In this document: positions 1-37,368 of the stretch, in pieces
How positions within the stretch are numbered: position 1 is the stretch's first letter
Layout of the letters: each line of letters starts with the position of its first letter
IMG/VR virus record: IMGVR_UViG_3300031825_000023
Span: 1-43,695 of that record
Reading direction: 5' to 3' (one strand)
DNA from: a virus
DNA: 43,695 bases
Translations under genes and position numbers: made by a program
Notes under the pieces: generated by a model
Seen by the model: only the letters and a program-made list of their open reading frames with translations
What the model was told of the DNA's origin: nothing
Databases searched by the model: none

Positions 1-135
1 GGCCCTGTGGCCCGTGGTGGCGGCGTTGGCCCTGTGGCCCGTGGTGGCGGCGTTGGCCCCTTCGCCCGTGGTGGCGGCGTTGGCCCAGTCGCCCGTGGTG
101 GCGGCGTTGGCCCAGTGGCCCGTGGTGGCGGCAGC
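1..135. repeat. 27-bp tandem repeat, left end
   Basis: Five copies of a 27-bp unit with core CCCGTGGTGGCGGCGTT start at 11, 38, 65, 92 and 119, exactly in register. The variable part between cores changes two codons per unit. The repeat lies inside a minus-strand reading frame and encodes a 9-residue periodic peptide. It continues at the right end of the window, so the contig was broken inside it. Confidence 0.95.
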
Positions 136-453
136 ATCGGGGCCGCCTTGCTTGACCGCCTCCATGATCTTCGCCTCATCCGCTCCGGCAATCAGAACCG
201 TTTGCTGCACGCGGGCCGGTGCATCAAGCTCAGCGAACACGCGCTCAGACAGCCATGAAGAGTCGCCATAGCGCCTGTCGGCTTGGAGTGCTGCATACAC
301 ATCGGCGAACTGACCGCCCTGAGGAAACTTTTCGAGGAACCAGCGGTATCCGTCAGTGCAGGCGCTCCATGCCTTGACACGTTCCTTGGTGATCGAAAGA
401 GGATCAGGCTTCTGGATGGCATCAGTGGCGATGGCTTCAATGTTCTTGTTCAT
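1..453 (-). CDS. 9-residue-repeat protein, N-terminal part (runs off the left edge)
   Basis: An open frame starts at ATG 453 and reads to base 1 without a stop (151 codons). GGAG lies about 11 nt before the ATG, and its first bases overlap the stop of the upstream gene as ATGA. Residues 1 to about 105 form a globular, acidic-helical domain with no family I can name. From about residue 106 the protein becomes a periodic repeat of NAATTG followed by a variable pair (HW, DW, EG, HR, HR). The remainder of the gene is at 43443-43695. With the window ends overlapped by four bases the codons stay in phase, giving about 233 residues with seven repeats. Similar AATTG-type arrays followed by a small C-terminal domain occur in uncharacterised phage proteins; the function is unknown. 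Its place in the leftward early operon next to recombination genes says it is made early. Confidence 0.85.
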   Translation of the reverse strand, partial: MNKNIEAIATDAIQKPDPLSITKERVKAWSACTDGYRWFLEKFPQGGQFADVYAALQADRRYGDSSWLSERVFAELDAPARVQQTVLIAGADEAKIMEAVKQGGPDAAATTGHWANAATTGDWANAATTGEGANAATTGHRANAATTGHRA

Positions 454-623
454 TCGTCGTTCTCCAGTTGGTGATGTGCGACCCTTGCTTGATGGATCGC
501 ATCGTTGAGGTCGAGGGCTACTGTCGCGGCGGCATCGGATTCGCTAGGACCATCCAGCGCATATGAGAAGCTGACCAGTACGACGATGAGCGCAGAGATC
601 AGCCAGATGACGAGGCGTTTCAT
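450..623 (-). CDS. small single-pass membrane protein
   Basis: This is a 57-residue protein. I chose ATG 623 because GAGGAG sits about 10 nt upstream; a longer frame to 701 lacks such a site. Residues 5-22 are a hydrophobic segment (LVIWLISALIVVLVSFSYA) that would act as an inner-membrane anchor or uncleaved signal. The rest is short and acidic. Its stop overlaps the start of the repeat-protein gene (ATGA), so the two are probably translationally coupled. No family recognised. Confidence 0.7.
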   Translation of the reverse strand: MKRLVIWLISALIVVLVSFSYALDGPSESDAAATVALDLNDAIHQARVAHHQLENDE

Positions 624-627
624 GGCA

Positions 628-900
628 TCACTCCTCACTCGGCCCGTAATGCACGATGGAATCGAGATCACACGCCAGATTGCCCAGTGATTCACGAGCA
701 CCTTGAAGATCGCCAGTGATCGGGAGACATGCCTGAAGGCAGGTCACAAGGTCGTACAACTCGACCGCACTGAATCCACCATGCCGAGAGAGACGGCGCA
801 GGTCCTCGCGAATCTCCGAGAGGTCGGATGCGCGCTGGCGGCGAATCTCGTACAGACGCATCGCTGCGGCGTTTGCGATGGAGAGGACTGCGGCGCTCAC
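628..900 (-). CDS. hypothetical early protein (90 aa)
   Basis: The frame starts at GTG 900, overlapping the stop of the upstream gene as GTGA, with a G-rich stretch (GGGGG) just upstream. An internal ATG at residue 14 has no binding site. The product is mostly helical with a basic stretch around residues 15-40 and two Cys near residues 54 and 58. No recognised domain. It is part of the leftward chain of coupled small genes driven from the promoter near 1.8 kb. Confidence 0.65.
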   Translation of the reverse strand: MSAAVLSIANAAAMRLYEIRRQRASDLSEIREDLRRLSRHGGFSAVELYDLVTCLQACLPITGDLQGARESLGNLACDLDSIVHYGPSEE

Positions 901-1247
901 GATGCACCCCCATTGCGCGGATGCAGGTTGTCCAGTGGATCAAGAGCCTGACCGCCGTTGTTGAAGGGGTCTGGTGCGGTCCCGGTAGCCTTGGCAATGG
1001 CGGCGCGAAGACGCGTGGTGCGGCAATCCGGGCCGCCGCATTCGCAGAGAATTCCCATCTCTCCCAGGACCTCCAGGTAGCTCTCCGCCACCGCGAGAAG
1101 CTCGGGCACGGCGGCGATCGCGCGCGCATTGCGTACCCCGAGCCTGCCGGGCACAACCGCGATCAGCGTGCCATCCTCGGCCCGGACCTCTGCATCCGCA
1201 AAAACGGCGAAGACCTTCCACGGGCCCGGCGTGTGCTGCGCGCTCAT
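897..1247 (-). CDS. HTPGPW-family phage protein
   Basis: This 116-residue protein begins MSAQHTPGPWKVF. The HTPGPW start followed by a short beta-rich domain, then NARAIAAVPELLAVAESYLE and a helical end, is a common pattern in small early proteins of proteobacterial phages. No biochemical role is known for the family. Overlaps with both neighbours are four bases, ATGA upstream and GTGA downstream, so it belongs to the leftward coupled operon. Confidence 0.8.
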   Translation of the reverse strand: MSAQHTPGPWKVFAVFADAEVRAEDGTLIAVVPGRLGVRNARAIAAVPELLAVAESYLEVLGEMGILCECGGPDCRTTRLRAAIAKATGTAPDPFNNGGQALDPLDNLHPRNGGAS

Positions 1248-1447
1248 GCCGACCTCGATTCGTTGATCTGCTGCTGCAGCGCGCGGCGGTCCGCGTCACG
1301 GAAGAGGGCTCCGGAATCCTTCGCGATGGCGTAGGTCCGATCCATCGCAAGCAGCTCCGCCTCTGTGGGCATGAACTGCCGCGCTTGCGCCGGCTTGAGG
1401 AACCTGGCGTGCCGGGCGATGCTGGCAAGGCGTTGGGCTTCGGTCAT
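1244..1447 (-). CDS. hypothetical early protein (67 aa)
   Basis: I start it at ATG 1447, which overlaps the upstream stop as ATGA; the longer frame to 1501 is read through the neighbour. The 67-residue product (MTEAQRLASIARHARFLKP...) is helical and basic at its N-terminus. No recognised domain. Its codon use fits the neighbouring genes. Confidence 0.65.
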   Translation of the reverse strand: MTEAQRLASIARHARFLKPAQARQFMPTEAELLAMDRTYAIAKDSGALFRDADRRALQQQINESRSA

Positions 1448-1749
1448 GCCGACACCTCGACAGCCTTGTCGACGAGCGCGATGAGCTTCGCAGGCTCCCA
1501 CTTGGCCCAGGAGCGGATCAGATCGCGCACCTGCTTCGCGGAGAACTTCACCGCGAACATCTGCACGATGGTTTGCTCGTGAGCTGCGAGCAGTCGGGCC
1601 GCTTCAGCTTTCTGTGCCTTGAACTGCACAGCGCGCTCGCGTTCGGCCTGACGCTTGGCCTTGGCCTGCTGCGCCTTGTAGCGGTCGATCTGAGCGTCGA
1701 TGTCTCCGCGCTTGGCGAGCGGGACATTCAGAACTCCGTGATCCAACAT
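1444..1749 (-). CDS. basic coiled-coil early protein, first gene of the leftward operon
   Basis: I chose ATG 1749 because AAGGA lies about 10 nt upstream; the longer frame to 1800 would start inside the promoter and operators. The 101-residue product is Lys/Ala/Gln-rich with a likely coiled coil at about residues 20-55, then a helical tail with a Trp-containing segment (RSWAKWEPAK). It is the first gene after the repressor-controlled leftward promoter, the position of lambda N. It does not show an obvious Arg-rich N-peptide, so I do not call it an antiterminator. Confidence 0.65.
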   Translation of the reverse strand: MLDHGVLNVPLAKRGDIDAQIDRYKAQQAKAKRQAERERAVQFKAQKAEAARLLAAHEQTIVQMFAVKFSAKQVRDLIRSWAKWEPAKLIALVDKAVEVSA

Positions 1750-1790
1750 CTGCCATCCTTTCGGCGCCGAACCACTCAGCGCTTGGGATG

Positions 1791-1819
1791 ACTGTAGCAA
1801 AAGCTACATACGTTCGCAA
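1791..1819 (-). promoter_or_regulatory. leftward early promoter (PL-like)
   Basis: Read on the minus strand, -35 TTGCGA (1814-1819), a 17-bp spacer and -10 TACAGT (1791-1796) form a good sigma70 promoter about 40 bp before the first leftward gene. One repressor operator covers the -10 and part of the spacer. A second abuts the upstream side of the -35. Repressor binding would therefore occlude it. Confidence 0.75.
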
Positions 1820-1834
1820 GTAGCAAATGCTATT
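1793..1834. promoter_or_regulatory. left operators (two TAGC-N4-GCTA sites)
   Basis: Site one, TGTAGCAAAAGCTACA, is at 1793-1808 and is a perfect inverted repeat. Site two, AGTAGCAAATGCTATT, is at 1819-1834. Their centres are 26 bp apart. The same motif recurs three times between the repressor and cro genes, so these are the probable binding sites of the repressor encoded at 4316-5002. Confidence 0.85.
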
Positions 1835-1872
1835 TATTTTGCAGGCTAACCGCCTACTCGATGAACGGGCGC

Positions 1873-1896
1873 AAAAAAGCCCGCCGAAGCGGGCTG
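1873..1896 (-). terminator. rho-independent terminator of the immunity operon
   Basis: On the minus strand, AGCCCGC-TTCG-GCGGGCT is followed by a run of T. It lies directly after the DUF1828/1829 gene and before the leftward promoter, so it separates the lysogenic operon from the lytic leftward operon. Confidence 0.85.
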
Positions 1897-1914
1897 GCGA
1901 GGGGCGGCCGGGGC

Positions 1915-2694
1915 TTAGAGTTCAGCCGCCAACTTGCGCTTCAGGGTGTCGTACTCTTGATTGGAGGCAACTTGGATGTCGGCGGCGTTGGTCAATCTCG
2001 ACACGTCGCCTCTGGGGATCGTGGACATATCGGCGTAGACGACCAGGCTGCGGAAGTCAAAGTTGAACTGCCGCAAGTACTGAAGAACAACCGTGGCAAG
2101 CCGGGCTTTAGTTTGATTCGGAACGCCAAACACCAGAACGGGCTTTTGCGTGCCGACGATGCCATAGTCGGCCTTGTAGTCCTCTGCCTTGGGTACGCCA
2201 GGAGCCACATAATCCTTCTGAACAACCACGTCACCGGCGATCGTCTGAAGGGATTCGAAGAGGTCTTCGTAGAAGGTGCTCTCGACTTGGACCCGGTTTA
2301 GAAAGCTCAGGTCGTGGATTCTGGTGAGGGCTTGGCCGAAGCGAAAGACGCTCTCGCCGAGCCTGTCGGCTGCTGCATCGAGATAGATTTCGCCATCGTC
2401 ATCTTGCACGCCCATTTCAGCAAGGATCTGGTCGAAGATCTTGCTCCGTGTGCCTTCTTTGAGCTTGTCGACGTCTTGGTCGTAGCTCATATGCATGAGG
2501 GTGGACCCTTTGTCGCTGAGTCTGAAGCCACCGCTGCTCAGGCGATCGAGGTACATTGAAAAACCGTCCCCGTCAGGAAAACTGAAAGGCGTTTGGACAT
2601 GCAAGCTGCCGTCTTTCCTCTCGCGCACGGTCACATCGGCGCAAAGCGCCTTGCAGAGCTGTTGCTCTACTGCGTGGTAATCCGTTGCGGTCAT
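1915..2694 (-). CDS. DUF1828/DUF1829 protein, immunity-region cargo
   Basis: This 259-residue protein looks like a two-domain DUF1828-DUF1829 architecture. The N-terminal part (about 1-110) has the DUF1828-like pattern FSMYLDRLSSGGFRLSDKG. The C-terminal part (about 140-240) has FYEDLFESLQTIAGD and a beta-alpha core, KPVLVFGVPNQTKARLATV, resembling DUF1829. No function is established for these domains; they occur in mobile, accessory contexts. It overlaps the upstream 160-residue gene as ATGA, so the two are a coupled pair. It is transcribed from the repressor side and closed by a terminator, in the place lambda uses for rexAB. Superinfection exclusion or a toxin-antitoxin-like role is an inference from position. 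Assignment to the families is by eye. Confidence 0.8.
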   Translation of the reverse strand: MTATDYHAVEQQLCKALCADVTVRERKDGSLHVQTPFSFPDGDGFSMYLDRLSSGGFRLSDKGSTLMHMSYDQDVDKLKEGTRSKIFDQILAEMGVQDDDGEIYLDAAADRLGESVFRFGQALTRIHDLSFLNRVQVESTFYEDLFESLQTIAGDVVVQKDYVAPGVPKAEDYKADYGIVGTQKPVLVFGVPNQTKARLATVVLQYLRQFNFDFRSLVVYADMSTIPRGDVSRLTNAADIQVASNQEYDTLKRKLAAEL

Positions 2695-3173
2695 ATGAGG
2701 CTCGGGCTGTGCAGGTCGCCTAAATCAGGAACGGGAGTGATGCTCCAATCTTCTGCAAGGCATTTTAGGGCGCTTACCACAGACGTAAAGCGCGTAGTTT
2801 CCACCGCATACTTCTCCACGCGGCGGCTCAGTTGAGCATAGCGCTCTGTTGCAGTATGGATGTGGAAAACATGGCTGAACCGTTCGCCCTCAATGGGGTT
2901 GTGATGCTCGTGGTCGGCGCCGTTGTACCTGACTAGTATCAAGCGTGCCCCGCCCGGCTGCACCAGGGCTAGTCCTGCGGTAAAGCTCTCAGGAATAAGA
3001 ATGCTCTGTCGGATGAACAAGGCGAAAGTCTCATCGCCTCCAACCGCCGAAACATCAAAGTTCTTTTCTTGGTGTTTTCCCTTTATCGTCAACCGTACCC
3101 TTGGATTCTGAACGCGCTTGGGCAGGAGCCGAAGTCGTTCTACCAACGCATCAGTGAGGTCGCTAGGTTCCAT
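2691..3173 (-). CDS. partner protein of the DUF1828/1829 gene (DUF6978-like)
   Basis: This 160-residue protein is coupled by ATGA overlap to the DUF1828/1829 gene. Its centre reads LILVRYNGADHEHHNPIEG and, shortly after, SHVFHIH. This resembles the G-x2-H-x-N-P...H-x-H signature of DUF6978-type proteins, which also pair with DUF1828 genes as I recall. The clustered His could bind metal or form a catalytic site, but that is not shown. The binding site before ATG 3173 is poor. Function unknown; the pair is best considered one cargo system of the lysogen. Confidence 0.7.
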   Translation of the reverse strand: MEPSDLTDALVERLRLLPKRVQNPRVRLTIKGKHQEKNFDVSAVGGDETFALFIRQSILIPESFTAGLALVQPGGARLILVRYNGADHEHHNPIEGERFSHVFHIHTATERYAQLSRRVEKYAVETTRFTSVVSALKCLAEDWSITPVPDLGDLHSPSLI

Positions 3174-3230
3174 TCTTGGTGTCTCGCAGTTGAGCTGCCT
3201 TCCTCCACTCCCAAGGAGCTTTCAGAAGGC

Positions 3231-3425
3231 CTACCTCTCCATCCTCTTCTCCCACCCCGGCTTGCACTCCCACCGATCCTTGGCCACGGCATCCTCCATG
3301 GTCTGCCACTGCATGTTCGCGGGCGTGTCGGGGCCGCCGACGCACAGAGCGATGCGGTGATCGATCGTGTACCCAGGGCACGGCCCTTTTGGTGAGCCGG
3401 TGGCCGGGCAAGGGTGCTCCATCAT
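3231..3425 (-). CDS. short HNH endonuclease, possibly 5'-truncated
   Basis: This 64-residue frame carries CPATG...GPCPGYTIDHRIALCVGGPDTPANMQW, the His-Me finger pattern of small phage HNH nucleases: DH general base, metal-site N, paired Cys for zinc, and a KDR tail. Codons upstream of ATG 3425 in the same frame still look homologous (AAVRAFMMEHPCPATG), but no start codon exists before the terminator hairpin at 3455-3479. That suggests the N-terminus was lost or the start moved. The gene may be a remnant. It lies between the secreted-protein gene and the DUF1828 pair. Confidence 0.65.
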   Translation of the reverse strand: MMEHPCPATGSPKGPCPGYTIDHRIALCVGGPDTPANMQWQTMEDAVAKDRWECKPGWEKRMER

Positions 3426-3453
3426 GAATGCCCGGACCGCGGCTTGAACCCAT

Positions 3454-3479
3454 GAAAAAGCCCGCGCGAGGCGGGCTTG
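3454..3479 (-). terminator. rho-independent terminator after the secreted-protein gene
   Basis: On the minus strand AAGCCCGC and GCGGGCTT form an 8-bp stem followed by TTTTTC. It lies just downstream of the 3510-4304 gene, so repressor-operon transcripts would partly stop here before the HNH and DUF1828 genes. Confidence 0.8.
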
Positions 3480-3509
3480 TAGGGAAAACGGTGATGGGCC
3501 AGGACACTA

Positions 3510-4304
3510 TCAAAAGCGAAGGCTTCGGGCTTTGGGATTGGCCACCCAGGTTCCGTCCTGCATGATGCGATAGCACTGATGGAAATCGACGGGTTCGCCG
3601 GCTGGTGTTAGTTTGCAGATGTCCTGCACGGCAGCCATGCAGCGGGCCTGCAATGGATAGCTATCGGGGTAGAGAGGGGCGGTCGAGCAAAGCGACCAGA
3701 AGATGCTGGGCAATGGCTTGGTCTTTGCTAGCCCAGCCAAATAAGCATATGCGCCCCTCGTCTCTTGTTCGCAGAGATCCCCGGCATGCTTGTTGCCGGC
3801 AGCGGCGAAGTCCGAGCAGACTTCGAGCTGCTTTTGCATGACGAATTCATGCGGGAGTGTCGTGAACATGCGATTCGACAAGTCCACATTCGCTGTCGCC
3901 GGCCTTGAAGGCTCCGGGTTTAGCGTGCGCACGCCAGTTGCCTCGCATACATCTGGAGCGCCCGGGAGGGATTGGTCCTTCAGTCGTATCGTGCATTGAA
4001 CTTCGACGTTGCTGCCATCGATCTGTTGGGCGTACTCAAGCAGTCCCTCCTTCCCTTGCGCGGGGATCAGCTCAAAGCGCATGGCCGAATTGGCATTCGG
4101 CGTGGATGAATAGAAGTCCTGCGGGCGGAAGTAGATCGCCTTTCTATCTCCCACTCGACCGTTCACCATGCCGACAGCGTTCTCTACATTGATGCGGCCT
4201 TTGGCGATGATCTCTTGCCCGGTGGTGACCACGATAGGCGGCTCTAAGGCCCAAGATCCGATAGAAACGAGCAACGCGATCGCGCCTGTGCAAAAACGCA
4301 TCAT
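3510..4304 (-). CDS. secreted Cys-rich protein behind the repressor
   Basis: The frame opens at TTG 4319, but ATG 4304 has AGGGA 7 nt upstream and gives a clean signal peptide (MMRFCTGAIALLVSIGSWA). The mature part of about 245 residues carries eight Cys, in keeping with disulfides and a periplasmic location. No domain recognised. It follows the repressor gene by 11 bp on the same strand and should be expressed in lysogens. A cell-surface or periplasmic protein made by a prophage fits lysogenic conversion or superinfection exclusion at the envelope; this is inferred from position and signal sequence only. Confidence 0.8.
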   Translation of the reverse strand: MMRFCTGAIALLVSIGSWALEPPIVVTTGQEIIAKGRINVENAVGMVNGRVGDRKAIYFRPQDFYSSTPNANSAMRFELIPAQGKEGLLEYAQQIDGSNVEVQCTIRLKDQSLPGAPDVCEATGVRTLNPEPSRPATANVDLSNRMFTTLPHEFVMQKQLEVCSDFAAAGNKHAGDLCEQETRGAYAYLAGLAKTKPLPSIFWSLCSTAPLYPDSYPLQARCMAAVQDICKLTPAGEPVDFHQCYRIMQDGTWVANPKARSLRF

Positions 4305-4315
4305 CAGTTCGTCCC

Positions 4316-5002
4316 TCAATCGTCCGGTGAAAACTGCTTCGATGGCTCGATGAAAGCATCGGGAGGCACGCTCCCCGCTACACGCTGGATACCGTCGATC
4401 TCCGATCGCTGGATCGTCATCGGACCATAGTTGTTGTTGATGCTCAGCAACTGGATCTCATCGCCGCGAACCCAGTTGAGCTGTTTGAGCAGCTTCTTGC
4501 CGTTGCGGAGCTTGACGATCACATCGCGGCCGGGAACCGGCTCGATTCCCGGTGTTACGACAACGAACTCTCCGGCCCGGTAGCGCGGATGCATCGAGTC
4601 GCCGCGCACGCGCAGCGCGTATGCGCTCGTGTCGCGGACCCAATATTCGACGAAGCCTTCGCCGCCACCGACCGGATAAGAGAGTTCTTCGAGATATCCG
4701 TCATCTCCGCCTTTGACATGTCCCACCACGGGGATCATGCCAGATGTAACCAGAGCGGGAGCGGCGGCTACGTTAGTGGCGACTATGTTTTGACTCGCTG
4801 TGAACCATCCTGAGCACCCTGGAAGGGCCTCGGCAGCGAGAACTGTCTTTTCCGTAACCGGGCGCTCGCCACGAATCATTTGCCCGACGAAAGCGCCGTC
4901 TTTGTAACCGAGCGCACGGCCAAGCGCTGCCTGCCCCCCGATCTTTTTGGCGAGGGCGATCAATCTTTCTATTCGCCAGGCGGCGAGTTCCTCTGCATCC
5001 AT
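4316..5002 (-). CDS. S24-family phage repressor (CI-like)
   Basis: This 228-residue protein has an N-terminal helix-turn-helix (about residues 15-55, GGQAALGRALGYKDGAFVGQM) and a LexA/CI-type C-terminal domain. The catalytic Ser136 lies in RVRGDSMHP and the Lys is probably Lys173 in KKLLKQL. I chose ATG 5002: in-frame ATGs further upstream would place the coding region over the operators and cro. No Shine-Dalgarno precedes ATG 5002, so the message may be nearly leaderless, as with lambda cI from PRM. No clear Ala-Gly cleavage site is visible in the linker. It should hold lysogeny by binding the five TAGC-N4-GCTA sites and may control its own promoter. Confidence 0.92.
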   Translation of the reverse strand: MDAEELAAWRIERLIALAKKIGGQAALGRALGYKDGAFVGQMIRGERPVTEKTVLAAEALPGCSGWFTASQNIVATNVAAAPALVTSGMIPVVGHVKGGDDGYLEELSYPVGGGEGFVEYWVRDTSAYALRVRGDSMHPRYRAGEFVVVTPGIEPVPGRDVIVKLRNGKKLLKQLNWVRGDEIQLLSINNNYGPMTIQRSEIDGIQRVAGSVPPDAFIEPSKQFSPDD

Positions 5003-5013
5003 GGGCCGGAGGG

Positions 5014-5066
5014 TAGCGGATGCTAGTAGAGCGAAAGCTAGTTGCTTGTCAGTAGCATTTGCTATA
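5014..5066. promoter_or_regulatory. right operators (three sites) between repressor and cro
   Basis: TAGC-GGAT-GCTA lies at 5014-5025, the degenerate GAGC-GAAA-GCTA at 5029-5040, and TAGC-ATTT-GCTA within 5051-5066. Centres are spaced 15 and 24 bp. The arrangement is like the three-operator OR of lambda and uses the same motif as the left operators. Confidence 0.82.
5023..5052 (-). promoter_or_regulatory. candidate repressor promoter (PRM-like)
   Basis: On the minus strand, -35 CTGACA (5047-5052), an 18-bp spacer and -10 TACTAG (5023-5028) would start a transcript only about a dozen bases before the repressor ATG. The middle operator lies in the spacer. Confidence 0.5.
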
Positions 5067-5068
5067 GG
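5042..5068 (+). promoter_or_regulatory. candidate rightward early promoter (PR-like)
   Basis: TTGCTT (5042-5047) and TATAGG (5063-5068) are 15 bp apart, a short spacing. They occupy the same places relative to two operators as the elements of the leftward promoter, where both the spacer and the operator spacing are 2 bp longer. Confidence 0.5.
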
Positions 5069-5078
5069 ATTGGTCATC

Positions 5079-5333
5079 ATGCAGCTCAACGACTACTTCC
5101 AGCTACCGAACTCCATGTCCGTTGCTGATCTCCGCGCGCTGATCGGCGTGAAGAGTGATGCCCAGATTCGACAGTGGCAACACGGCTATGCCGACCGTCT
5201 GCCAAGCCCCGCGAACTGCGTCGCCATTGAACGCGCAACGGACGGTCTCGTTACTCGGCGCGACTTGCGCCCGCATGACTGGCAGGACATCTGGCCCGAG
5301 CTGGCCGAAGCGAAGGCAGTGACCCATGGCTGA
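5079..5333 (+). CDS. Cro-like small regulator
   Basis: This 84-residue protein is divergent from the repressor. ATG 5079 has AGGA about 9 nt upstream. The sequence (MSVADLRALIGVKSDAQIRQWQHGYADRLPSPANCVAIERATDGLVTRRDLRP) is a YdaS/Cro-like helix-turn-helix: a helical DNA-recognition half, then the typical CVAIERAT...VTRRDLRP ending. It should compete with the repressor at the right operators and favour lytic growth. Confidence 0.88.
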   Translation: MQLNDYFQLPNSMSVADLRALIGVKSDAQIRQWQHGYADRLPSPANCVAIERATDGLVTRRDLRPHDWQDIWPELAEAKAVTHG

Positions 5334-5511
5334 TACCAAGCGACGACTCTCCGCCTCCGATGCGCAGGACATCAAGGAAATCGTGATGGATGCAGGCCGC
5401 CGCAGCGCCCTCAGCCCGATTGAATTGGCGCAGTCCCTGATCGACGCGCTTGAAGTAATCGAGCGCGCTACTGCTTCTGATCCGCTCCAGTCAACTGAGA
5501 AAACAGCATGA
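5326..5511 (+). CDS. small helical early protein
   Basis: A 61-residue protein that starts within the last codons of cro (ATG 5326) and is therefore cotranscribed with it. It is helical and acidic (DAQDIKEIVMDAGRRSALSPIELAQSLIDALEVIERAT). No family recognised. Its 3' end overlaps a convergent minus-strand gene by 44 bp. Confidence 0.6.
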   Translation: MADTKRRLSASDAQDIKEIVMDAGRRSALSPIELAQSLIDALEVIERATASDPLQSTEKTA

Positions 5512-5650
5512 CCAGATATGCGGCATCGGCCTCGGCCCTTTTCTTCGCCTGCTCGGGAACGATCGTGTTGTTGCCTTCCAGCCGGATGGCATTGGCCCCG
5601 ATTGCGGCCTTGATGATGTCGATGGCTTGGAGGTCGTTGAAAGTCTTCAT
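5468..5650 (-). CDS. small antisense-strand protein (60 aa)
   Basis: This minus-strand frame has strongly GC-rich third positions like the real genes here, and its product (MKTFNDLQAIDIIKAAIGANAIRLEGNNTIVPEQ...) looks like a compact helical protein. It lies against the direction of the cro operon and converges with the gene ending at 5511. No family recognised. Confidence 0.55.
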   Translation of the reverse strand: MKTFNDLQAIDIIKAAIGANAIRLEGNNTIVPEQAKKRAEADAAYLVMLFSQLTGADQKQ

Positions 5651-5800
5651 TTGGATGCTCGCCCCTCTCGGGGTCCTTGTTGTGGAACTCGGACTCTACC
5701 CCGCGAGTGGGCGGGCCCCAATCGGGGAGGCTGTCTGATGCCCACAGTTCGCTTGTCTCTCGATCTGTCGCCGATCCAATTTCAGGTCGACGAGCTGAAG

Positions 5801-6286
5801 CTACTTCTTGAACGTCTTCCTGATGGCGTCGCCGAGCCCTTTCTTCAGCGCCTCGCCGATCTTGTCGATTTCGGCCTGGAGGCTGAACCTCTCCCCACAG
5901 GACCCACAGGTGGCTGTATCGCTCGTTTCCGGAGTGTTGCCCTTGCTGAGCTGCGTGTTGCCGCACGCCGGGCACTTGATGGCGACGTGACCGAGGTTCG
6001 TGATGGTCATGGAGGCCCTCATGCGAAGTGAAGTTGTGGAAAACCAATCTTCGCATGGGGTGTCTGCCTGATGCCCCGCCTGCTTCTTCTCTGCTCGCTG
6101 CATCAGTTCCTGCAGCACGCGTGCCGTCTCCTTCTCTATGTGAGCTTGCGCGAAGTCCTCGGGCATCCCGATAGCTCCGCACGTCTCGCAATTCAACGGA
6201 AGGTCTGGCCTCGACGCCTTGCCGAACTTGTTCCCCTCGCAGATCGGGCAGTACAGGGGCTTTCCTTGATGGCTGGAGATCGTCAT
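5801..6286 (-). CDS. double zinc-ribbon protein (or two adjacent zinc-ribbon proteins)
   Basis: A minus-strand frame of 161 residues from ATG 6286. Two halves begin alike. The first is MTISSHQGKPLYCPIC...CETCG; the second, starting with an internal ATG at 6010, is MTITNLGHVAIKCPACG...CGSCGERF. Each has two Cys pairs typical of a zinc ribbon. A GAGGGC site precedes ATG 6010, so the second half may also be made alone (69 residues). GC-rich third positions favour this strand over the overlapping plus-strand frame at 5738-6031. After the second ribbon comes a basic helix (GEALKKGLGDAIRKTFKK). Binding of nucleic acid is plausible; no function known. Confidence 0.65.
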   Translation of the reverse strand: MTISSHQGKPLYCPICEGNKFGKASRPDLPLNCETCGAIGMPEDFAQAHIEKETARVLQELMQRAEKKQAGHQADTPCEDWFSTTSLRMRASMTITNLGHVAIKCPACGNTQLSKGNTPETSDTATCGSCGERFSLQAEIDKIGEALKKGLGDAIRKTFKK

Positions 6287-6296
6287 GGGGCTCTCT

Positions 6297-6458
6297 ATGC
6301 GGATTGATATGTCCAGTGTCATCGGTTTCCTTCTCTGCCTGGGCTTCGCCTGGTTCGCTGTCGATGCCTTCGCTCGTGGCGAGTACGTCGCTGCAGCGAT
6401 CTTCGTTCTCGCACTCGTGGCGGCGCTTTTCGAGCTGATGCGCGAGCGCAAGAGCTAA
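6297..6458 (+). CDS. small two-helix membrane protein
   Basis: This 53-residue frame has two hydrophobic helices (about 8-22 and 31-46: FLLCLGFAWFAV and VAAAIFVLALVAALF) and a basic end (MRERKS). It is divergent from the zinc-ribbon gene by 10 bp, and a hairpin terminator lies 16 bp after its stop. ATG 6309 is an alternative start. Function unknown; a role in the membrane during early infection is possible. Confidence 0.55.
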   Translation: MRIDMSSVIGFLLCLGFAWFAVDAFARGEYVAAAIFVLALVAALFELMRERKS

Positions 6459-6474
6459 GTCGTAGATGTTTTGC

Positions 6475-6499
6475 ATGAGGACTCGATCCTCATTTTTTT
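6475..6499 (+). terminator. tR1-like terminator before the replication operon
   Basis: ATGAGGA-CTCGA-TCCTCAT followed by seven T is a classical intrinsic terminator. It sits between the cro region and the CII-like gene, the position of lambda tR1, where rightward early transcription is attenuated or antiterminated. Confidence 0.85.
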
Positions 6500-6508
6500 G
6501 ACCAAAAA

Positions 6509-6545
6509 AAGCTTTGCGAATGCTTACGAAAAGTTCGCAAAGCTT
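6509..6545. promoter_or_regulatory. 12-bp inverted repeat upstream of the CII-like gene
   Basis: AAGCTTTGCGAA (6509-6520) and TTCGCAAAGCTT (6534-6545) are exact inverted copies with a 13-bp spacer. The right arm ends just before the AAAGG ribosome site of the next gene. It could be an operator, or an RNA hairpin near the ribosome site. It is not followed by T, so it is not a terminator. Confidence 0.7.
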
Positions 6546-6559
6546 CGGAAAGGTGGCCG

Positions 6560-6940
6560 ATGGAATCCCTGAATGAAGCACTCGTCGAATGCATCAAGGC
6601 GGCGGGTGGATCGAAGCAAGTAGGCCCGCTCCTGTGGCCAGAAAAGGCCCCGGACAGCGCGCAGCGCATGTTGCTCGACTGCATGAACGAGGACCGCCCG
6701 GCAAAACTTTCCCCGGAGCAGGTTCTGCTGGTGCTGCGCTTGGCACGCGCCAAGGGCTATCACGAAGGGATGAACTTCATCGCGGCAGACCTCGGCTACG
6801 GCACGCCGGTGCCTGTTGAGCCTCGCGATGAAGTGGCGGACCTGATGCGTGAATTCAATGCGTCGGTCGAGAAGCAGGCGGCGCTCGCCGACAGGATACA
6901 GAAAGCCGCCTCCCGGCTGAATATGCGGGCGGTCGCATGA
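6560..6940 (+). CDS. CII-like regulatory protein
   Basis: A 126-residue protein; ATG 6560 follows AAAGG at good distance. The N-terminal half (MESLNEALVECIKAAGGSKQVGPLLWP...AQRMLLDCMNEDRPAKLSPEQVLLVLRLA) has the layout of the phage CII/CP76-type helix-turn-helix regulators. The C-terminal half is helical, probably for oligomerisation. Its position right after a tR1-like terminator and before the replication genes supports a role in the lysis-lysogeny choice. The exact family is by eye. Confidence 0.65.
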   Translation: MESLNEALVECIKAAGGSKQVGPLLWPEKAPDSAQRMLLDCMNEDRPAKLSPEQVLLVLRLARAKGYHEGMNFIAADLGYGTPVPVEPRDEVADLMREFNASVEKQAALADRIQKAASRLNMRAVA

Positions 6941-7210
6941 GCGCCGATCTGTTCGGCTTCGAGCCGCCCCGCGCCAAGTTCACCGACATCCGCAACCAGC
7001 GCGAGAGCATCGCCGAAGAGAAGGCGCGCCTCTGCATGGAACTCAATGAGCTTTGCAGGACCCCCCCCCCGCTCGCTCGGCGCAGCGTCAATCCAGGCAA
7101 TTCACGCTTGGCGCGTCGAGCACAAGGCTGCGCTCAAGACGCTATGCGCCAAGGATGCAAGTCGGCAGCAGCTCCGGGCTGCCATCAACTCAATGCGGCG
7201 GTTTAAATGA
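6937..7210 (+). CDS. early protein with a frameshift in a ten-C run
   Basis: The frame from ATG 6937 (ATGA overlap) reads MSADLFGFEPPRAKFTDIRNQRESIAEEKARLCMELNELC and then meets ten C at 7061-7070. As written it continues in an unlikely frame to 7206. If the run had nine C, the frame would continue ...RTPPRSLGAASIQAIHAWRVEHKAALKTL...SMRRFK and stop at 7208-7210, overlapping the next ATG as ATGA. That second reading has natural protein character and restores operon coupling. A sequencing error in the homopolymer, a real mutation or programmed slippage could all explain it. About 90 residues; no family recognised. Confidence 0.75.
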
Positions 7211-11165: not shown

Positions 11166-11302
11166 ACTTCTGCGACACCTGCGAAACCTGCGCCCATTGC
11201 CTTCTCAAGGGCTGCATCCCCATCCAGCCGGCGGAGCCCGAGCCTCTGACCTGGCCGGTGATCGATGAAACCCTGATTCCAGAAAAGACCAAGGAGGACT
11301 GA
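11162..11302 (+). CDS. 46-residue Cys-rich protein
   Basis: ATG 11162 overlaps the ninG stop as ATGA, and the stop overlaps the next ATG. The protein begins MNFCDTCETCAHCLLKGC, with five Cys in the first 18 residues, suggesting one bound zinc. The rest is proline- and acid-rich. No family recognised. Confidence 0.75.
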   Translation: MNFCDTCETCAHCLLKGCIPIQPAEPEPLTWPVIDETLIPEKTKED

Positions 11303-11874
11303 TGCGCATCACCGACCGCTACTCAACGGCCATTCGTTCCTCGTGCCTCACCGTCGACGCGCGAACCACCTACAGCGACACCGATGTTCTCGGCGCCATG
11401 GGGCTGGCGCATCGCGACCTATCCGAAGGCCGCACCTGGTCGAAGGGCCAGCAGGCGCCGATCCCGAAGGCTGAGCTTGCTGTGCCGCTCGAGCGCCTGT
11501 TCATGGGCGACAACAGCGCAGCGCAGGAAATCGTGGAGATCATGGTCGAGTGGCTTCGGGGCAAGGCGCCGGCCATGCATCTGAAGCTGACCACGTTGCA
11601 GTGCGCGGACATGGCGAAAGCCTGCCTCGCATGGCATCGGGACCACGTGTGCAAGGTGTGCGGCGGCCAGGGCAGGGGCGTCATCACGCCACGCGGCTGG
11701 GTTGGTGGCCCGATTTGCAAGCCGTGCCGCGGAACTGGCGCCATCCTTTTCGAGAAGCAATTCCGCCACGATCACCGTGACCTCGCGCGCTGGCTGGTGG
11801 GCGAGATGGAGCGCGAGCAGGGGCGGGCTGGGCCTGCAGCCATGAGGAAGATTGCGGCGAGGATCGATCTGTGA
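11302..11874 (+). CDS. Q-like late antiterminator (zinc-finger)
   Basis: A 190-residue protein and the last gene of the rightward early operon. Its centre has a DnaJ-like zinc module, CKVCGGQGRGVI...CKPCRGTGAI (about residues 117-150), flanked by helical segments. Zinc-binding Q proteins of lambdoid phages have such a module and sit exactly here, followed by the late promoter. I infer late-gene antitermination from position and the zinc module; sequence outside it is not decisive. Confidence 0.65.
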   Translation: MRITDRYSTAIRSSCLTVDARTTYSDTDVLGAMGLAHRDLSEGRTWSKGQQAPIPKAELAVPLERLFMGDNSAAQEIVEIMVEWLRGKAPAMHLKLTTLQCADMAKACLAWHRDHVCKVCGGQGRGVITPRGWVGGPICKPCRGTGAILFEKQFRHDHRDLARWLVGEMEREQGRAGPAAMRKIAARIDL

Positions 11875-11892: not shown

Positions 11893-11921
11893 TTGCGGCG
11901 ACGCGATTGTTCGTGTACAGT
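11893..11921 (+). promoter_or_regulatory. putative late promoter
   Basis: TTGCGG (11893-11898), a 17-bp spacer and TACAGT (11916-11921) lie just after the Q-like gene. It is the only good sigma70-like promoter seen in the 400-bp gap before the late genes. It is followed by a hairpin near 11970-11990 and a terminator, as expected for a Q-dependent start. Confidence 0.55.
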
Positions 11922-12010
11922 GCGCCCACCTGTACATAGCCGATGTGTTGTCGGCAAAGCAATAGAGCAGGCCCGCCGTTCGATGGCGGAGCCACCTCTA
12001 AAAAATCATG

Positions 12011-12036
12011 AAGCCGCCCTTTGAGGCGGCTTTTCG
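12011..12036 (+). terminator. intrinsic terminator between late promoter and tRNA
   Basis: AAGCCGCC and GGCGGCTT form an 8-bp stem followed by TTTTCG. It would stop transcripts from the promoter at about 11.9 kb unless antiterminated, like lambda tR'. Confidence 0.8.
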
Positions 12037-12040
12037 TTTC

Positions 12041-12117
12041 AGCGGTGTAGCGCAGCCCAGTAGCGCGCGGGGCTCATAACCCTGAGGGCATCGGAGCGAA
12101 GCCGGCCACCGCAACCA
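12041..12117 (+). tRNA. initiator-like tRNA-Met (CAU), divergent T-loop
   Basis: A 77-nt cloverleaf with encoded CCA. Acceptor AGCGGTG pairs with CACCGC, leaving an A1-A72 mismatch. The D-arm is GCGC/GCGC. The anticodon stem CGGGG/CCCTG with loop CTCATAA gives anticodon CAU and three consecutive G-C pairs. The 1:72 mismatch and the three G-C pairs are marks of initiator tRNA. The T-loop reads AGCGAAG instead of TTCRANY, and the stem has an A-C mismatch, so it may be a degraded or specialised copy. It is flanked by two terminators. Confidence 0.8.
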
Positions 12118-12147
12118 CTTGTCTCCAAGGTCGACCACCGGCCTTTT

Positions 12148-12170
12148 GCCCGCCTTCGCGCGGGCTTTTT
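12148..12170 (+). terminator. intrinsic terminator after the tRNA
   Basis: GCCCGC and GCGGGC form a stem with a short CTTCGC-type loop, followed by TTTTT. It closes the tRNA transcription unit. Confidence 0.8.
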
Positions 12171-12279
12171 CATTTGTGACTGCGGATAGGCTGGCCGGCC
12201 GACAAGGGGTGCACACACCGCCCTTTCCGTGAGTCTTCTGTGTGGCCTGGCGCTGTTCTGGCGCGTGTGGGGCATTCCA

Positions 12280-12771
12280 ATGAAAACCGATCTGACCGCT
12301 GCTCGCGCTCGAGAGCTGTTTTCCTATGACTGCGAGACTGGGCGCCTGACATGGCGACTGGCCACGAACGGTCGAATCAGGGTGGGCGCGTTGGCTGGCT
12401 TCGTTGGCGACCAGGGTTATCGCTTGGTAAGGGCCGACCGTCATCGCCATCTTGAGCATCGGGTAATTTGGTTGATCCAGACCGGAACGTGGCCTGTCGG
12501 TCAGATCGACCATCGAAACGGCGAGCGTTCTGACAACCGATGGCCCAACTTGCGGGATGTGCCATGCGCCGTCAATAACCAGAATCAGCGCCACGCGCTC
12601 CCCAACAACAAAACCGGCTTTCTCGGGGTCAGCCCGGAGAGGAGCTTGTTCAAGGCAGAGATTCAGCTGAACGGCAGAACTCGATACCTCGGCGCGTACA
12701 AAACGCCAGAACTTGCATACGAGGCATATTTGGCCGCTAAACGCCAGATGCATATCGGCTGCACGATTTAG
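12280..12771 (+). CDS. HNH endonuclease with AP2-type DNA-binding domain
   Basis: I start at ATG 12280 (MKTDLTAARARELFSYD), giving 163 residues. The HNH core is HLEHRVIWLIQTGTWPVGQIDHRNGERSDNRWPNLRDV, with DH and N-x-N-L elements. It is followed by an AP2-like domain (TGFLGVSPERSLFKAEIQLNGRTRYLGAYKTPELAYEAYLAAKR). This architecture is typical of free-standing phage homing-type endonucleases. It lies between the tRNA and terminase, a usual insertion place. Confidence 0.88.
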   Translation: MKTDLTAARARELFSYDCETGRLTWRLATNGRIRVGALAGFVGDQGYRLVRADRHRHLEHRVIWLIQTGTWPVGQIDHRNGERSDNRWPNLRDVPCAVNNQNQRHALPNNKTGFLGVSPERSLFKAEIQLNGRTRYLGAYKTPELAYEAYLAAKRQMHIGCTI

Positions 12772-12954: not shown

Positions 12955-13494
12955 ATGGGCCGACCTTCGAAGCTCACCGAAAAGCAGTGGGAAGAGATCG
13001 GCAGGCGCCTCCTCGATGGCGAAACCGCTCGATCTCTGGCGCGCGAGTTCGGCGTCTCCGAGGCAGCCATCCGAAAGCGCTTAGGTACGCAGAGCGCACA
13101 AATAAAACACGTTGCGAATCAAATAGTTGCAACGGAAATCGCGCTGCAAGCCCTTCCGGTAAGTGCGCAGATAAGTGCGCACAACCTTGCGAACCAACTG
13201 CGATCGATCTCGGGCCACTTGGCTGGCGCCGCGAACTACGGTGCCGCCACCGCACATCGGTTGTCGGGCATTGCCCACGCCAAGGTGCAAGAGATCGATG
13301 ACGCCAAGCCGCTGGATGCTGAAAGTCTCGAATCGCTCAAGGGCGTGGCTGTGCTCACCCGGATGGCGAACGACGCCGCGGCAACCGGCCTGAACCTGCT
13401 GGCGGCGAACAAGGAGACCGTGAAGTCTCTGGAAGAGCCGCCGGAGAAGCCGCCATCACTCGATGACTTCTATGGAGGCCTCCCCAAGCCTTAA
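12955..13494 (+). CDS. terS: terminase small subunit
   Basis: A 179-residue protein. Residues 1-45 hold a helix-turn-helix (MGRPSKLTEKQWEEIGRRLLDGETARSLAREFGVSEAAIRKRLG). The rest is helical for oligomerisation, ending in an acidic proline-rich tail (EEPPEKPPSLDDFYGGLPKP). Its 3' end overlaps the large subunit by 32 bp. It should recognise the packaging site and feed DNA to TerL. Confidence 0.88.
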   Translation: MGRPSKLTEKQWEEIGRRLLDGETARSLAREFGVSEAAIRKRLGTQSAQIKHVANQIVATEIALQALPVSAQISAHNLANQLRSISGHLAGAANYGAATAHRLSGIAHAKVQEIDDAKPLDAESLESLKGVAVLTRMANDAAATGLNLLAANKETVKSLEEPPEKPPSLDDFYGGLPKP

Positions 13495-14857
13495 CCCCGC
13501 ATTGCGTGACTTCTGGCTGACGCCGGCGCGCAACCGTGTTCTGTTCGGCGGCCGGTCATCGTCGAAGTCGTGGGACGCTGCAGGGTTCGTCACCTTCCTG
13601 GCGGACAACTGCAAGATCCGCGTGCTGTGCGTGCGGCAGTTCCAGAACAAGATCGAGGAATCGGTCTACACGCTGCTGAAGCACCAGATCGAGCGCTTCG
13701 GCCTGAGCAAGCGCTTCCGCATCCTGGACAACAAGATCCACGGGCGCAGGACCGGCAGCGAGTTCCTGTTCTACGGCCTGTGGCGCTCCATCGACGAAAT
13801 CAAGTCGCTGGAGGGCATCGACATCCTGTGGATCGAGGAAGGCCACAACCTCACGGAAGAGCAGTGGGAGATCCTCGAAGCGACGATCCGCAAGCAGGGG
13901 TCGCAGGTATGGATCATCTTCAACCCACGCCTTGCCACGGACTTCGTCTACAAGCGCTTCGTGCTCAACCCGCCGCCTGACACGGTGGTGCGCAAGATCA
14001 ACTACAACGAGAACCCGTTTCTCAGCGAGACGATCCGCAAGGTCATCGAGGCGAAGAAGGCCGAGGATTACGACGACTACATGCACATCTATGAAGGTGT
14101 GCCTCGCGAGGATGACGATGCCACGATCATCAAACGGTCGTGGATCATGGCGGCGATCGACGCGCATGTGAAGCTGGGCTTCGAGGCCTCAGGATCGAAG
14201 CGCATCGGCTTCGACGTGGCCGACAGCGGCGAGGACAAGTGTGCCAACGTCTACGCACACGGCTCGGTGGTGAGCTGGGCTGACGAATGGAAGGCGGGCG
14301 AGGATGAGCTGCTGAAGAGCTGCACCCGCACCTATTCCGCGGCCAGGGAGCGCGGCGCATCGGTCGCCTACGACTCGATTGGCGTCGGTGCCTCGGCAGG
14401 CGCGAAGTTCAACGAGATCAATGAGCAGCGCAAGACCGAGGGCGAGACGTTCATGGTGATCCATGAGAAGTTCAACGCCGGCGGCGCGGTGTGGGAGCCG
14501 GATCGCAGCTACCAGCCCGGCATCACGAACAAGGACATGTTCGCCAACATCAAGGCGCAGACCTGGTGGATGGTGGCGGACCGCTTCCGCAACACCTACA
14601 ACGCGGTGCATCGCGGTGAGAAGTTCAGCGACGACCGGTTGATCAGCATCGCGAGCGACTGCCCGCACCTGGACAAGTTGATCGACGAGCTGTCGACGCC
14701 GAGGCGCGATTACGACCAGAACGGGCGGGTCAAGGTGGAGAGCAAGAAGGATCTGGCCAAGCGGGACATCTCCTCGCCGAACGTGGCCGATGCCTTCGTG
14801 ATGTGCTTTGCGCCGGGCGCGCGATCCCTGGAAATTTGGGCAAGGCTTGCAGGATGA
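13463..14857 (+). CDS. terL: terminase large subunit
   Basis: A 464-residue packaging motor of the PBSX/Terminase_3 type. Walker A-like GGRSSSKS is at residues 29-36. Walker B is in DILWIEEGHN. The C-terminal nuclease has acidic residues in GFDVADSGEDK, AYDSIGVGAS and SSPNVADAF. Start may be ATG 13463 or 13472; neither has a good ribosome site, which fits coupling to terS. It cuts the concatemer and drives DNA into the prohead. Confidence 0.93.
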   Translation: MTSMEASPSLNPALRDFWLTPARNRVLFGGRSSSKSWDAAGFVTFLADNCKIRVLCVRQFQNKIEESVYTLLKHQIERFGLSKRFRILDNKIHGRRTGSEFLFYGLWRSIDEIKSLEGIDILWIEEGHNLTEEQWEILEATIRKQGSQVWIIFNPRLATDFVYKRFVLNPPPDTVVRKINYNENPFLSETIRKVIEAKKAEDYDDYMHIYEGVPREDDDATIIKRSWIMAAIDAHVKLGFEASGSKRIGFDVADSGEDKCANVYAHGSVVSWADEWKAGEDELLKSCTRTYSAARERGASVAYDSIGVGASAGAKFNEINEQRKTEGETFMVIHEKFNAGGAVWEPDRSYQPGITNKDMFANIKAQTWWMVADRFRNTYNAVHRGEKFSDDRLISIASDCPHLDKLIDELSTPRRDYDQNGRVKVESKKDLAKRDISSPNVADAFVMCFAPGARSLEIWARLAG

Positions 14858-36186: not shown

Positions 36187-37368
36187 ATGCCTACAGCGAA
36201 CACCCTGACAGACGCGATCTGCAAGCGCGCAGCGCCCTCCGACAAGCCGCAGAAGCTCTTCGACGGCCATGGCCTGCACCTCTTCATCACCCCGGCCGGC
36301 GGCAAGCGCTGGCGCATGTCCTACCGCTTCGGCGGAAAGCCGCAGACGGCCACCTTCGGGCCCTATCCACGGGTGAGCCTCGCCGATGCCAGGAAGCGCC
36401 GCGATGATCTGATGCAGGCGCTGGACCGCGGCGAGGACCCGAAGGCGAAGAAGGAGCCGAAGAAACCGGCGGACGTGCTCACCTTCCAGACGGCCTGCGA
36501 GAACTTCTGGAGAGGCCGCAAGGACATCACCTCGGGCTACCGGGACAACGCCCTGCGTGGGCTGGAGATGCACCTCTGGCCCACCCTGGGCGAGCTGCCC
36601 ATCACCGAGATCGACAAGCCAGCGCTGATGAAGGCGCTGCTGCGTATGGACGATGCCGGCAAACACGTCTACGTGCGACGCGTGCGTGTGTGGGCGGGCC
36701 AGGTGTTCGACTGGGCGGTCGAGCGCGGCGAGGCGAAGATGAACCCGGCGGCGCTCATCCGTCCGGACAAGGCGTTCGCCAAGCGCCCGGTCGAGAACTT
36801 CGCGGCGCTGGATATCACCGAGGTGCCGGCGTTCATGGAAAGGTTGTCGCTCGAGAAGGAGCTGCAGAGCGTGCTCGCCTGCAAGCTGCTCGCGCTCACC
36901 TGGGTGCGCACGAAGGAGCTGCGGGCCATGGAGTGGGACCAGGTCGACGGGGACATGTGGCGGGTGCCGGCGGGGAACATGAAGAAGCGCCGGGCGCACC
37001 TGGTGCCGCTATCCAGCCAGGCGCTCAAGCTGCTGGAGGTGCTGCGGGCCCGGCGCCGGCCGGCCAGTCCCTACGTGTTCCCGTCAGAGCATCGGGATGA
37101 CCGCCCCATGAGCGAGAACGCGGTGCTGTACCTGATCGCCCGCATGGGCTACCAGGGCCGCATGACGGGGCACGGCTGGCGCAGTGTCGGCAGCACCTGG
37201 GCCAACGAGAGAGAGATGAATCCGGACGCCATCGAGCGCCAGCTCTCGCATGCGCCGGATGACGAGGTGCGCGGCGTCTACAACCGCGCGGAGTATCTGG
37301 CGCAGCGTCGCGCCATTCTGCAAGGCTGGGCCGACTGGCTCATGCCGGATCCGGCAGCCGCAGCTTGA
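36187..37368 (+). CDS. int: tyrosine-recombinase integrase
   Basis: A 393-residue integrase. Residues 1 to about 90 form the DUF4102-type arm-binding domain (DAICKRAAPSDKPQKLFDGHGLHLFITPAGGKRWRMSYRFGGKPQTATFGPYPRVSLADARKRRDD). The catalytic part has Arg in LTWVRTKELRAMEWDQV, H-G-W-R in TGHGWRSVGSTWANE, H in QLSHAPDDEVRG and the nucleophile Tyr365 in GVYNRAEYL. It catalyses integration at tRNA-Ser. An arm-type repeat overlaps its first codons, so it may repress itself. Its 3' end overlaps the convergent Xis-like gene by 29 bp. Confidence 0.94.
   Translation: MPTANTLTDAICKRAAPSDKPQKLFDGHGLHLFITPAGGKRWRMSYRFGGKPQTATFGPYPRVSLADARKRRDDLMQALDRGEDPKAKKEPKKPADVLTFQTACENFWRGRKDITSGYRDNALRGLEMHLWPTLGELPITEIDKPALMKALLRMDDAGKHVYVRRVRVWAGQVFDWAVERGEAKMNPAALIRPDKAFAKRPVENFAALDITEVPAFMERLSLEKELQSVLACKLLALTWVRTKELRAMEWDQVDGDMWRVPAGNMKKRRAHLVPLSSQALKLLEVLRARRRPASPYVFPSEHRDDRPMSENAVLYLIARMGYQGRMTGHGWRSVGSTWANEREMNPDAIERQLSHAPDDEVRGVYNRAEYLAQRRAILQGWADWLMPDPAAAA

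Follow-up and report, generated by a model that had tools for sequence, protein, structure and literature searches.

An initiator-like phage tRNA with an A18·G55 elbow

The window, that is the whole stretch of 43,695 nucleotides analysed here, corresponds to one entire IMG/VR record and carries a temperate phage with a lambda-like layout. A CI-like repressor gene (4316-5089, minus strand) is followed by the genes for a replication protein, NinB, NinG and, in the Q position, a protein with zinc motifs, after which a tRNA gene, an HNH endonuclease gene, the terminase genes and the portal gene are located. The integrase is encoded at 36187-37368, 24 kb away from the tRNA gene, for which reason a function of the latter as attachment site was dismissed. 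Two families were matched by the gene product of 1915-2694 (minus strand), namely PDC-M24B, a candidate defence family of PADLOC (E 3.7e-19), and phrog_5059, which has no assigned function. The large terminase subunit, used as anchor for finding related phages, has 173 viral relatives and 27 in bacterial genomes. Since its closest counterparts in named bacteria, with 74-78% identity, belong to prophages of Achromobacter, Caballeronia, Burkholderia and Cupriavidus, the host is likely to be a member of the Burkholderiales. The features surrounding the tRNA gene are:

11302-11874, plus: putative Q-type late antiterminator gene, following ninB and directly after ninG; CxxC zinc motifs
11913-11936, plus: conserved inverted repeat GTGTACAGT..CACCTGTACA (TGTACAG..CTGTACA) downstream of the Q-position gene; candidate late-promoter/Q region or regulator site
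12010-12040, plus: hairpin with T-rich tail, candidate terminator 5' of the tRNA gene (-15.7 kcal/mol, z -3.97)
12041-12117, plus: initiator-like tRNA gene, anticodon CAU, encoded CCA
12119-12145, plus: conserved TTGTCTCCAAGG element with hairpin, right border of the cargo slot
12148-12172, plus: terminator 3' of the tRNA gene
12229-12771, plus: HNH endonuclease gene (phrog_99, E 1.7e-49), best start probably ATG at 12280
12955-13494, plus: gene for a helix-turn-helix protein (HTH_7) preceding the large terminase gene, probably the small terminase subunit
13463-14857, plus: large terminase subunit gene, followed by the portal gene

The product of the Q-position gene matched no PHROG or Pfam family, and no relatives were retrieved when the gene was used as probe in bacterial genomes. 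The gene in the same place in phage L155 shows a weak match to 'anti-termination protein Q-like'. The inverted repeat downstream is conserved in L089 and near-identical in L088, the closest phage relative; no sigma-70 consensus was found at this repeat. The leader upstream of the tRNA gene is common to L088 and L089, and the candidate terminator in front of the tRNA gene is present in L088 as well. A Betaproteobacteria-1 sRNA (RF02932, 72.7 bits) is located upstream of the Q region in L088 (954-1076). The position of the tRNA gene, after a putative Q-type gene and a terminator and before the terminase genes, makes late expression likely, for which Q-type antitermination is the natural reading of the gene order.

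The segment between the leader and the right border differs among relatives. L088 lacks the tRNA gene and has in its place approximately 350 bp of different sequence, including an ORF on the reverse strand. The insert of L089 is longer, and a tRNA-Gly is predicted in it. With different inserts between conserved borders, the segment is a slot for exchangeable cargo at the beginning of the putative late operon, and the absence of the tRNA gene from L088 indicates that it is dispensable. The TTGTCTCCAAGG border element is the same in L088 and L089, with a shorter match in L155. In addition, the late-leader regions of several phages (window 12119-12145, L088 at 4089, L089 at 5093, L155 at 7783 and L019 at 2293) have kept GTCTCCAAGG with a hairpin or terminator behind it, whichever cargo adjoins; the element may belong to a late leader RNA. 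A match to the toxic sRNA family RF02278 at 12120-12173 reached 18.5 bits against a cut-off of 50 and is not claimed. The tRNA of L155 sits after the weakly Q-like gene, that of L286, L287 and L288 among portal, protease and capsid genes. L025 and the Achromobacter prophage L210 have initiator-like tRNAs with a normal elbow 0.5-0.8 kb before the terminase.

The only tRNA identified in the window by ARAGORN is a tRNA-Met(CAU), which was also recovered with Rfam RF00005 (39.7 bits against a cut-off of 29, E 4.8e-5 for the whole window and all families). Its parts discussed below are:

12059-12060, plus: A18-G19 of the D-loop, A replacing G18
12075-12077, plus: CAU anticodon, in a loop (CTCATAA) identical to that of host initiators
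12095-12101, plus: T-loop A54-G55-C56-G57-A58-A59-G60, replacing TTCRANY

The features for which the gene had originally been predicted to encode an initiator-like tRNA are all present in the sequence. In the acceptor stem (AGCGGTG/CACCGCA) A1 and A72 are unpaired, so that no stable Watson-Crick pair is formed at 1-72, and G2:C71, C3:G70 and G4:C69 are paired; the acceptor determinants for methionyl-tRNA formyltransferase (MTF) are present in the sequence. The anticodon arm (CGGGG-CTCATAA-CCCTG) contains three G:C pairs at 29-31/39-41, and A73 precedes an encoded CCA. The covariance search proposed with the prediction scored 71.7 bits with an initiator model (built from 38 normal-elbow initiators of phages and hosts) compared to 47.1 with an elongator model (17 CAU elongators), a difference of 24.6 bits in favour of an initiator. 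C11:G24 departs from the secondary initiator feature of a purine at 11 and a pyrimidine at 24, and from the A11:U24 usual among these initiators. It is not taken as defining, since the normal-elbow phage initiators L003, L131 and L141 carry C11:G24 as well. The T-arm (ATCGG-AGCGAAG-CCGGC) is weakened by an A49·C65 mismatch next to U50·G64. Minimum free energy folding of the tRNA alone did not return a cloverleaf (z -0.49), so the evidence for the assignment comes from the covariance models and from comparative analysis. The expectation that initiator tRNAs are rare in phages did not hold: such tRNAs are already known as annotated fMet tRNAs of isolated phages, and at least 119 stretches of viral contigs match a single pattern.

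Few contacts in tRNA are as conserved as that of G18 with psi55. In the window, the canonical combination of G18-G19 with U54-U55-C56 is replaced by A18, A54 and G55, and only G19 and C56 are kept. The T-loop had been singled out as unusual in the original prediction, rightly so, while its D-loop partner A18 had been overlooked, as had the cargo slot of the late operon and the occurrence of this elbow in further phage tRNAs. Among 588 unique, well-formed tRNAs with C56, 13 of the 14 with G55 also have A18, the remaining one being ambiguous at position 18 (D-loop ATTCAGGA). A18 was found in 0 of 573 tRNAs with U55. The Fisher p value for the tie between both positions (1e-25) ignores relatedness and includes some rows picked by pattern, and the tie holds without the pattern-picked rows. 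D-loop and T-loop have changed together and, as judged from the sequences, are still matched to each other.

The same elbow was retrieved by searches of different design. Searching the T-loop beside an initiator anticodon arm yielded five further tRNA contigs with three different tRNAs (L237; L239, L241 and L243, which share one identical tRNA; L244), all with A18 and with a T-loop identical to that of the window. Three of the eight matches (L238, L240 and L242) are not tRNAs and were excluded. A search for A18 added L246 (T-loop AGCAAAG) and L245/L247, both with G55. Among the matches listed for initiators collected blind to the T-loop, L109, L113, L137 and L197 have G55, each together with A18.

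Altered elbows are not confined to initiators. Viral contig G001 (38.8 kb; L278 covers positions 1-7000) encodes 16 predicted tRNAs, five of which (Lys, initiator Met, Ala, His and Ile) are of the A18/G55 type; two of the others (Asp and Glu) have A54 T-loops, and all 11 others keep the normal pair at 18 and 55. Approximately 4% of non-initiator phage tRNAs (17/458) carry A54, frequently combined with U58 (ATCGTNA), which looks like a swap of the U54-A58 contact (L113, L119, L137, L154, L188, L198, L200, L203, L208 and others). Since T-loops are altered in other phage tRNAs too, and A18·G55-type changes occur in non-initiators, the cause need not concern initiation.

The nearest tRNA is that of phage L155, with 71 of 77 positions identical. 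It has G18 and U55 with the T-loop ATCGAAG, so that positions 18 and 55 are among the six differences; a third is D-loop position 17a, beside 18 (C against A). Both tRNAs form a supported pair in the tree (97/94), from which it follows that the exchange took place between close sisters. In a further search, 12 additional, distinct initiators of phages turned up with ATCGAAG; each of them has G18. The tRNA tree, which is weak as it comprises only 77 columns, requires several gains or losses of each elbow state.

Decay of the gene, one of three explanations offered originally for the T-loop, is rejected on the basis of covariation and conservation. It is highly improbable that the phage captured a host initiator gene of which only a decaying remnant is left: the modest RF00005 score of 39.7 bits, the A49·C65 mismatch, C11:G24 and the absence of the gene from the closest relative would fit, but 18 and 55 changed as a matched pair, the same loop is conserved in distant phages, the stems are compensated, and CCA and initiator marks are intact. 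Across 19 altered-elbow initiators, 99.5% of the stem cells pair, and two-sided stem changes number 62 versus about 16 in shuffles. Disruptive changes in relatives, named beforehand as evidence against the prediction, are therefore the opposite of what was seen, stems being compensated and the T-loop change being matched by the D-loop. Positions 1 and 72 are mismatched in 19 of 23 altered-elbow phage initiators, in seven different combinations, with U-A in the other four and never G:C. A weak 1-72 pair matters in initiator tRNAs for formylation and for escape from peptidyl-tRNA hydrolase, and weakness kept while the bases change is expected if both matter here. Initiators with the same elbow are found in phages with different head modules. 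In host genomes, the A18 initiator pattern was found in none of 399 Burkholderiales genomes, while the G18 pattern was found in 38 of 41; A54 T-loops were found in 0 of 150 Pseudomonadota. Two records retrieved as phage, AGRM01000002 and probably OR851117, contain the host gene instead and were discarded as phage evidence. Altogether, the tRNA has the appearance of a functional molecule under selection rather than of a gene in decay.

The best explanation, which we consider probable, is a functional initiator for late translation, the elbow of which has been rebuilt and is a poor target for host elbow enzymes or toxins. The tRNA would be transcribed late, once the Q-type protein lets RNA polymerase pass the terminator in front, would then be processed and presumably charged with methionine and formylated by host enzymes, and would supply fMet-tRNA for the translation of virion proteins. 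In the elbow, a putative A18·G55 contact would replace G18-psi55 next to the outer pair G19-C56, which is kept; U54 has given way to A. The bases that carry Gm18, m5U54 and psi55 (PMC7912444) are those lost here, so that all three host-modified bases are gone. One benefit may be independence from elbow modifications during fast late synthesis, as the tRNA would fold without them. A second, suggested by analogy, may be that host enzymes or toxins reading the TpsiC loop, possibly including T-loop nucleases, recognise it poorly: a Burkholderia CDI toxin cuts the tRNA T-loop between T and psi (PMC9086364), and escape via the tRNA body is documented for the tRNA-Tyr of phage T5, which resists retron-Eco7 through a changed variable loop (PMC13096335). 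Of the three original explanations, escape from nucleases or from modification by the host is our best guess. Against this benefit, a single initiator that evades cleavage could not bring translation back once every tRNA is cut. C11:G24, the weakened T-stem and the dispensability of the gene likewise count against the explanation as a whole.

The main rival is neutral compensatory drift, in which the tRNA gene merely adds to the late initiator dosage, is short-lived and weakly constrained, and has acquired an equally good elbow of no advantage. Although we hold it to be unlikely, several alternative elbows do exist in phage tRNAs (A54-U58, A54-A58, G55), another 54-58 combination supports tRNA function in the eukaryotic initiator (A54-A58, PMC7912444), and the gene is dispensable. 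The intermediate of such a drift would be expected to fold poorly. Nevertheless, the double change has arisen in several tRNA backgrounds and in more than one isoacceptor, and the bacterial genomes searched did not yield it.

The third original explanation, a role in altered initiation, would make the tRNA a specialist with an elbow that shifts its behaviour on the ribosome or towards initiation factors in favour of phage mRNAs, like the A54/A60 elbow of eukaryotic initiators. A54 with a purine at 60 recalls these initiators, which have unmodified A54 and U55 (PMC10602860). Furthermore, G55 with A18 is over-represented in initiators of the T-loop-blind sample (4/72 versus 4/458 non-initiators, p 0.014, a weak enrichment), and two phages with 19-20 tRNAs have G55 in the initiator alone. 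Such a role is nevertheless improbable, as the exchange is also seen in Lys, Ala, His and Ile tRNAs and U20 and G60 stand here in place of the eukaryotic A20 and A60. Start codon usage is not unusual either: a link had been proposed to many genes starting with GTG or lacking ribosome sites, but a rough scan of 33 main genes picked 27 ATG, four GTG and two TTG starts, hence no excess of GTG, and the link to missing ribosome sites found no support.

More generally, but only as a tentative proposal, phages may repeatedly have evolved a second functional elbow, A18·G55, often with A54 and mostly noted in initiators, which frees tRNAs from host elbow modification and from defences or toxins reading TpsiC. 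The exchange and its tie to phages were not found in the searchable literature, which excludes most subscription journals, and A18·G55 thus seems undescribed in searchable papers; nor was a eukaryote-like T-loop in bacterial-type initiators found there. Steinberg and colleagues have reportedly carried out in-vitro selection work on tRNA loops. The repeated natural replacement in phage tRNAs means that the elbow can be rewired with the molecule still under selection, and A18·G55 tRNAs provide a direct test of why elbow modifications exist. Escape of phage tRNAs from host attack, so far a matter of the anticodon loop, would thereby extend to the body of the tRNA and to initiators. Since standard tRNA finders score such genes low, others have probably been overlooked.

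Initiator-type, phage-borne tRNAs are also found in Sinorhizobium phage phiLM21, Bordetella phage PHB04, Caulobacter phages CcrSC and Mycobacterium cluster C phages. That of phiLM21 is likewise located directly before the terminase genes. All of them differ from the window tRNA by a standard TTC T-loop and G18-G19. The phiLM21 tRNA-Met (L004, 3999-4075) is annotated on the minus strand, but the ARAGORN prediction lies on the plus strand, immediately 5' of the terminase. In Clavibacter phage CN1A (L312, 1495-1571), an initiator-like tRNA with the loop CTCATAT is missing from the annotation; it lies 0.6 kb before the large terminase subunit gene, and a terminator follows it. Permuted tmRNAs are predicted near phage tRNAs in PHB04 (L003, 4951-5322), where tRNAs and tmRNA are both unannotated, and in L247 (11449-11941).

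Phage tRNAs escaping host anticodon nucleases (eLife 2023, PMC10264068) and the T5 tRNA-Tyr facing retron-Eco7 share with the window tRNA that they are altered where host enzymes act. In the former, the anticodon loop is altered, whereas here the change lies in the elbow and the loop CTCATAA is as in host initiators; escape from anticodon nucleases such as VapC was therefore discarded. In the VapC-LT2 case, phages generally avoid encoding tRNA-fMet (PMC10264068).

With bacterial tRNA-fMet (Burkholderiales, E. coli metY/metZ) the window tRNA has in common the loop CTCATAA, the three G:C pairs, the unpaired 1-72, G2:C71-C3:G70-G4:C69, A73 and CCA. It differs in A18 for G18, A54-G55 for T-psi, G60, C11:G24 and A49·C65, and in being phage-encoded in a late region. 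With the elbow of eukaryotic cytoplasmic initiators (A20, A54, A60; PMC10602860) it shares A54, C56-G57-A58-A59 and a purine at 60; the sister class ATCGAAG departs from the eukaryotic loop at position 60 alone. Of A20, A54 and A60, A54 alone is present, and the bacterial acceptor and anticodon marks, U20, G60 and G55/A18 set the window tRNA apart. The likeness is convergence: the phage elbow resembles that of eukaryotic initiators.
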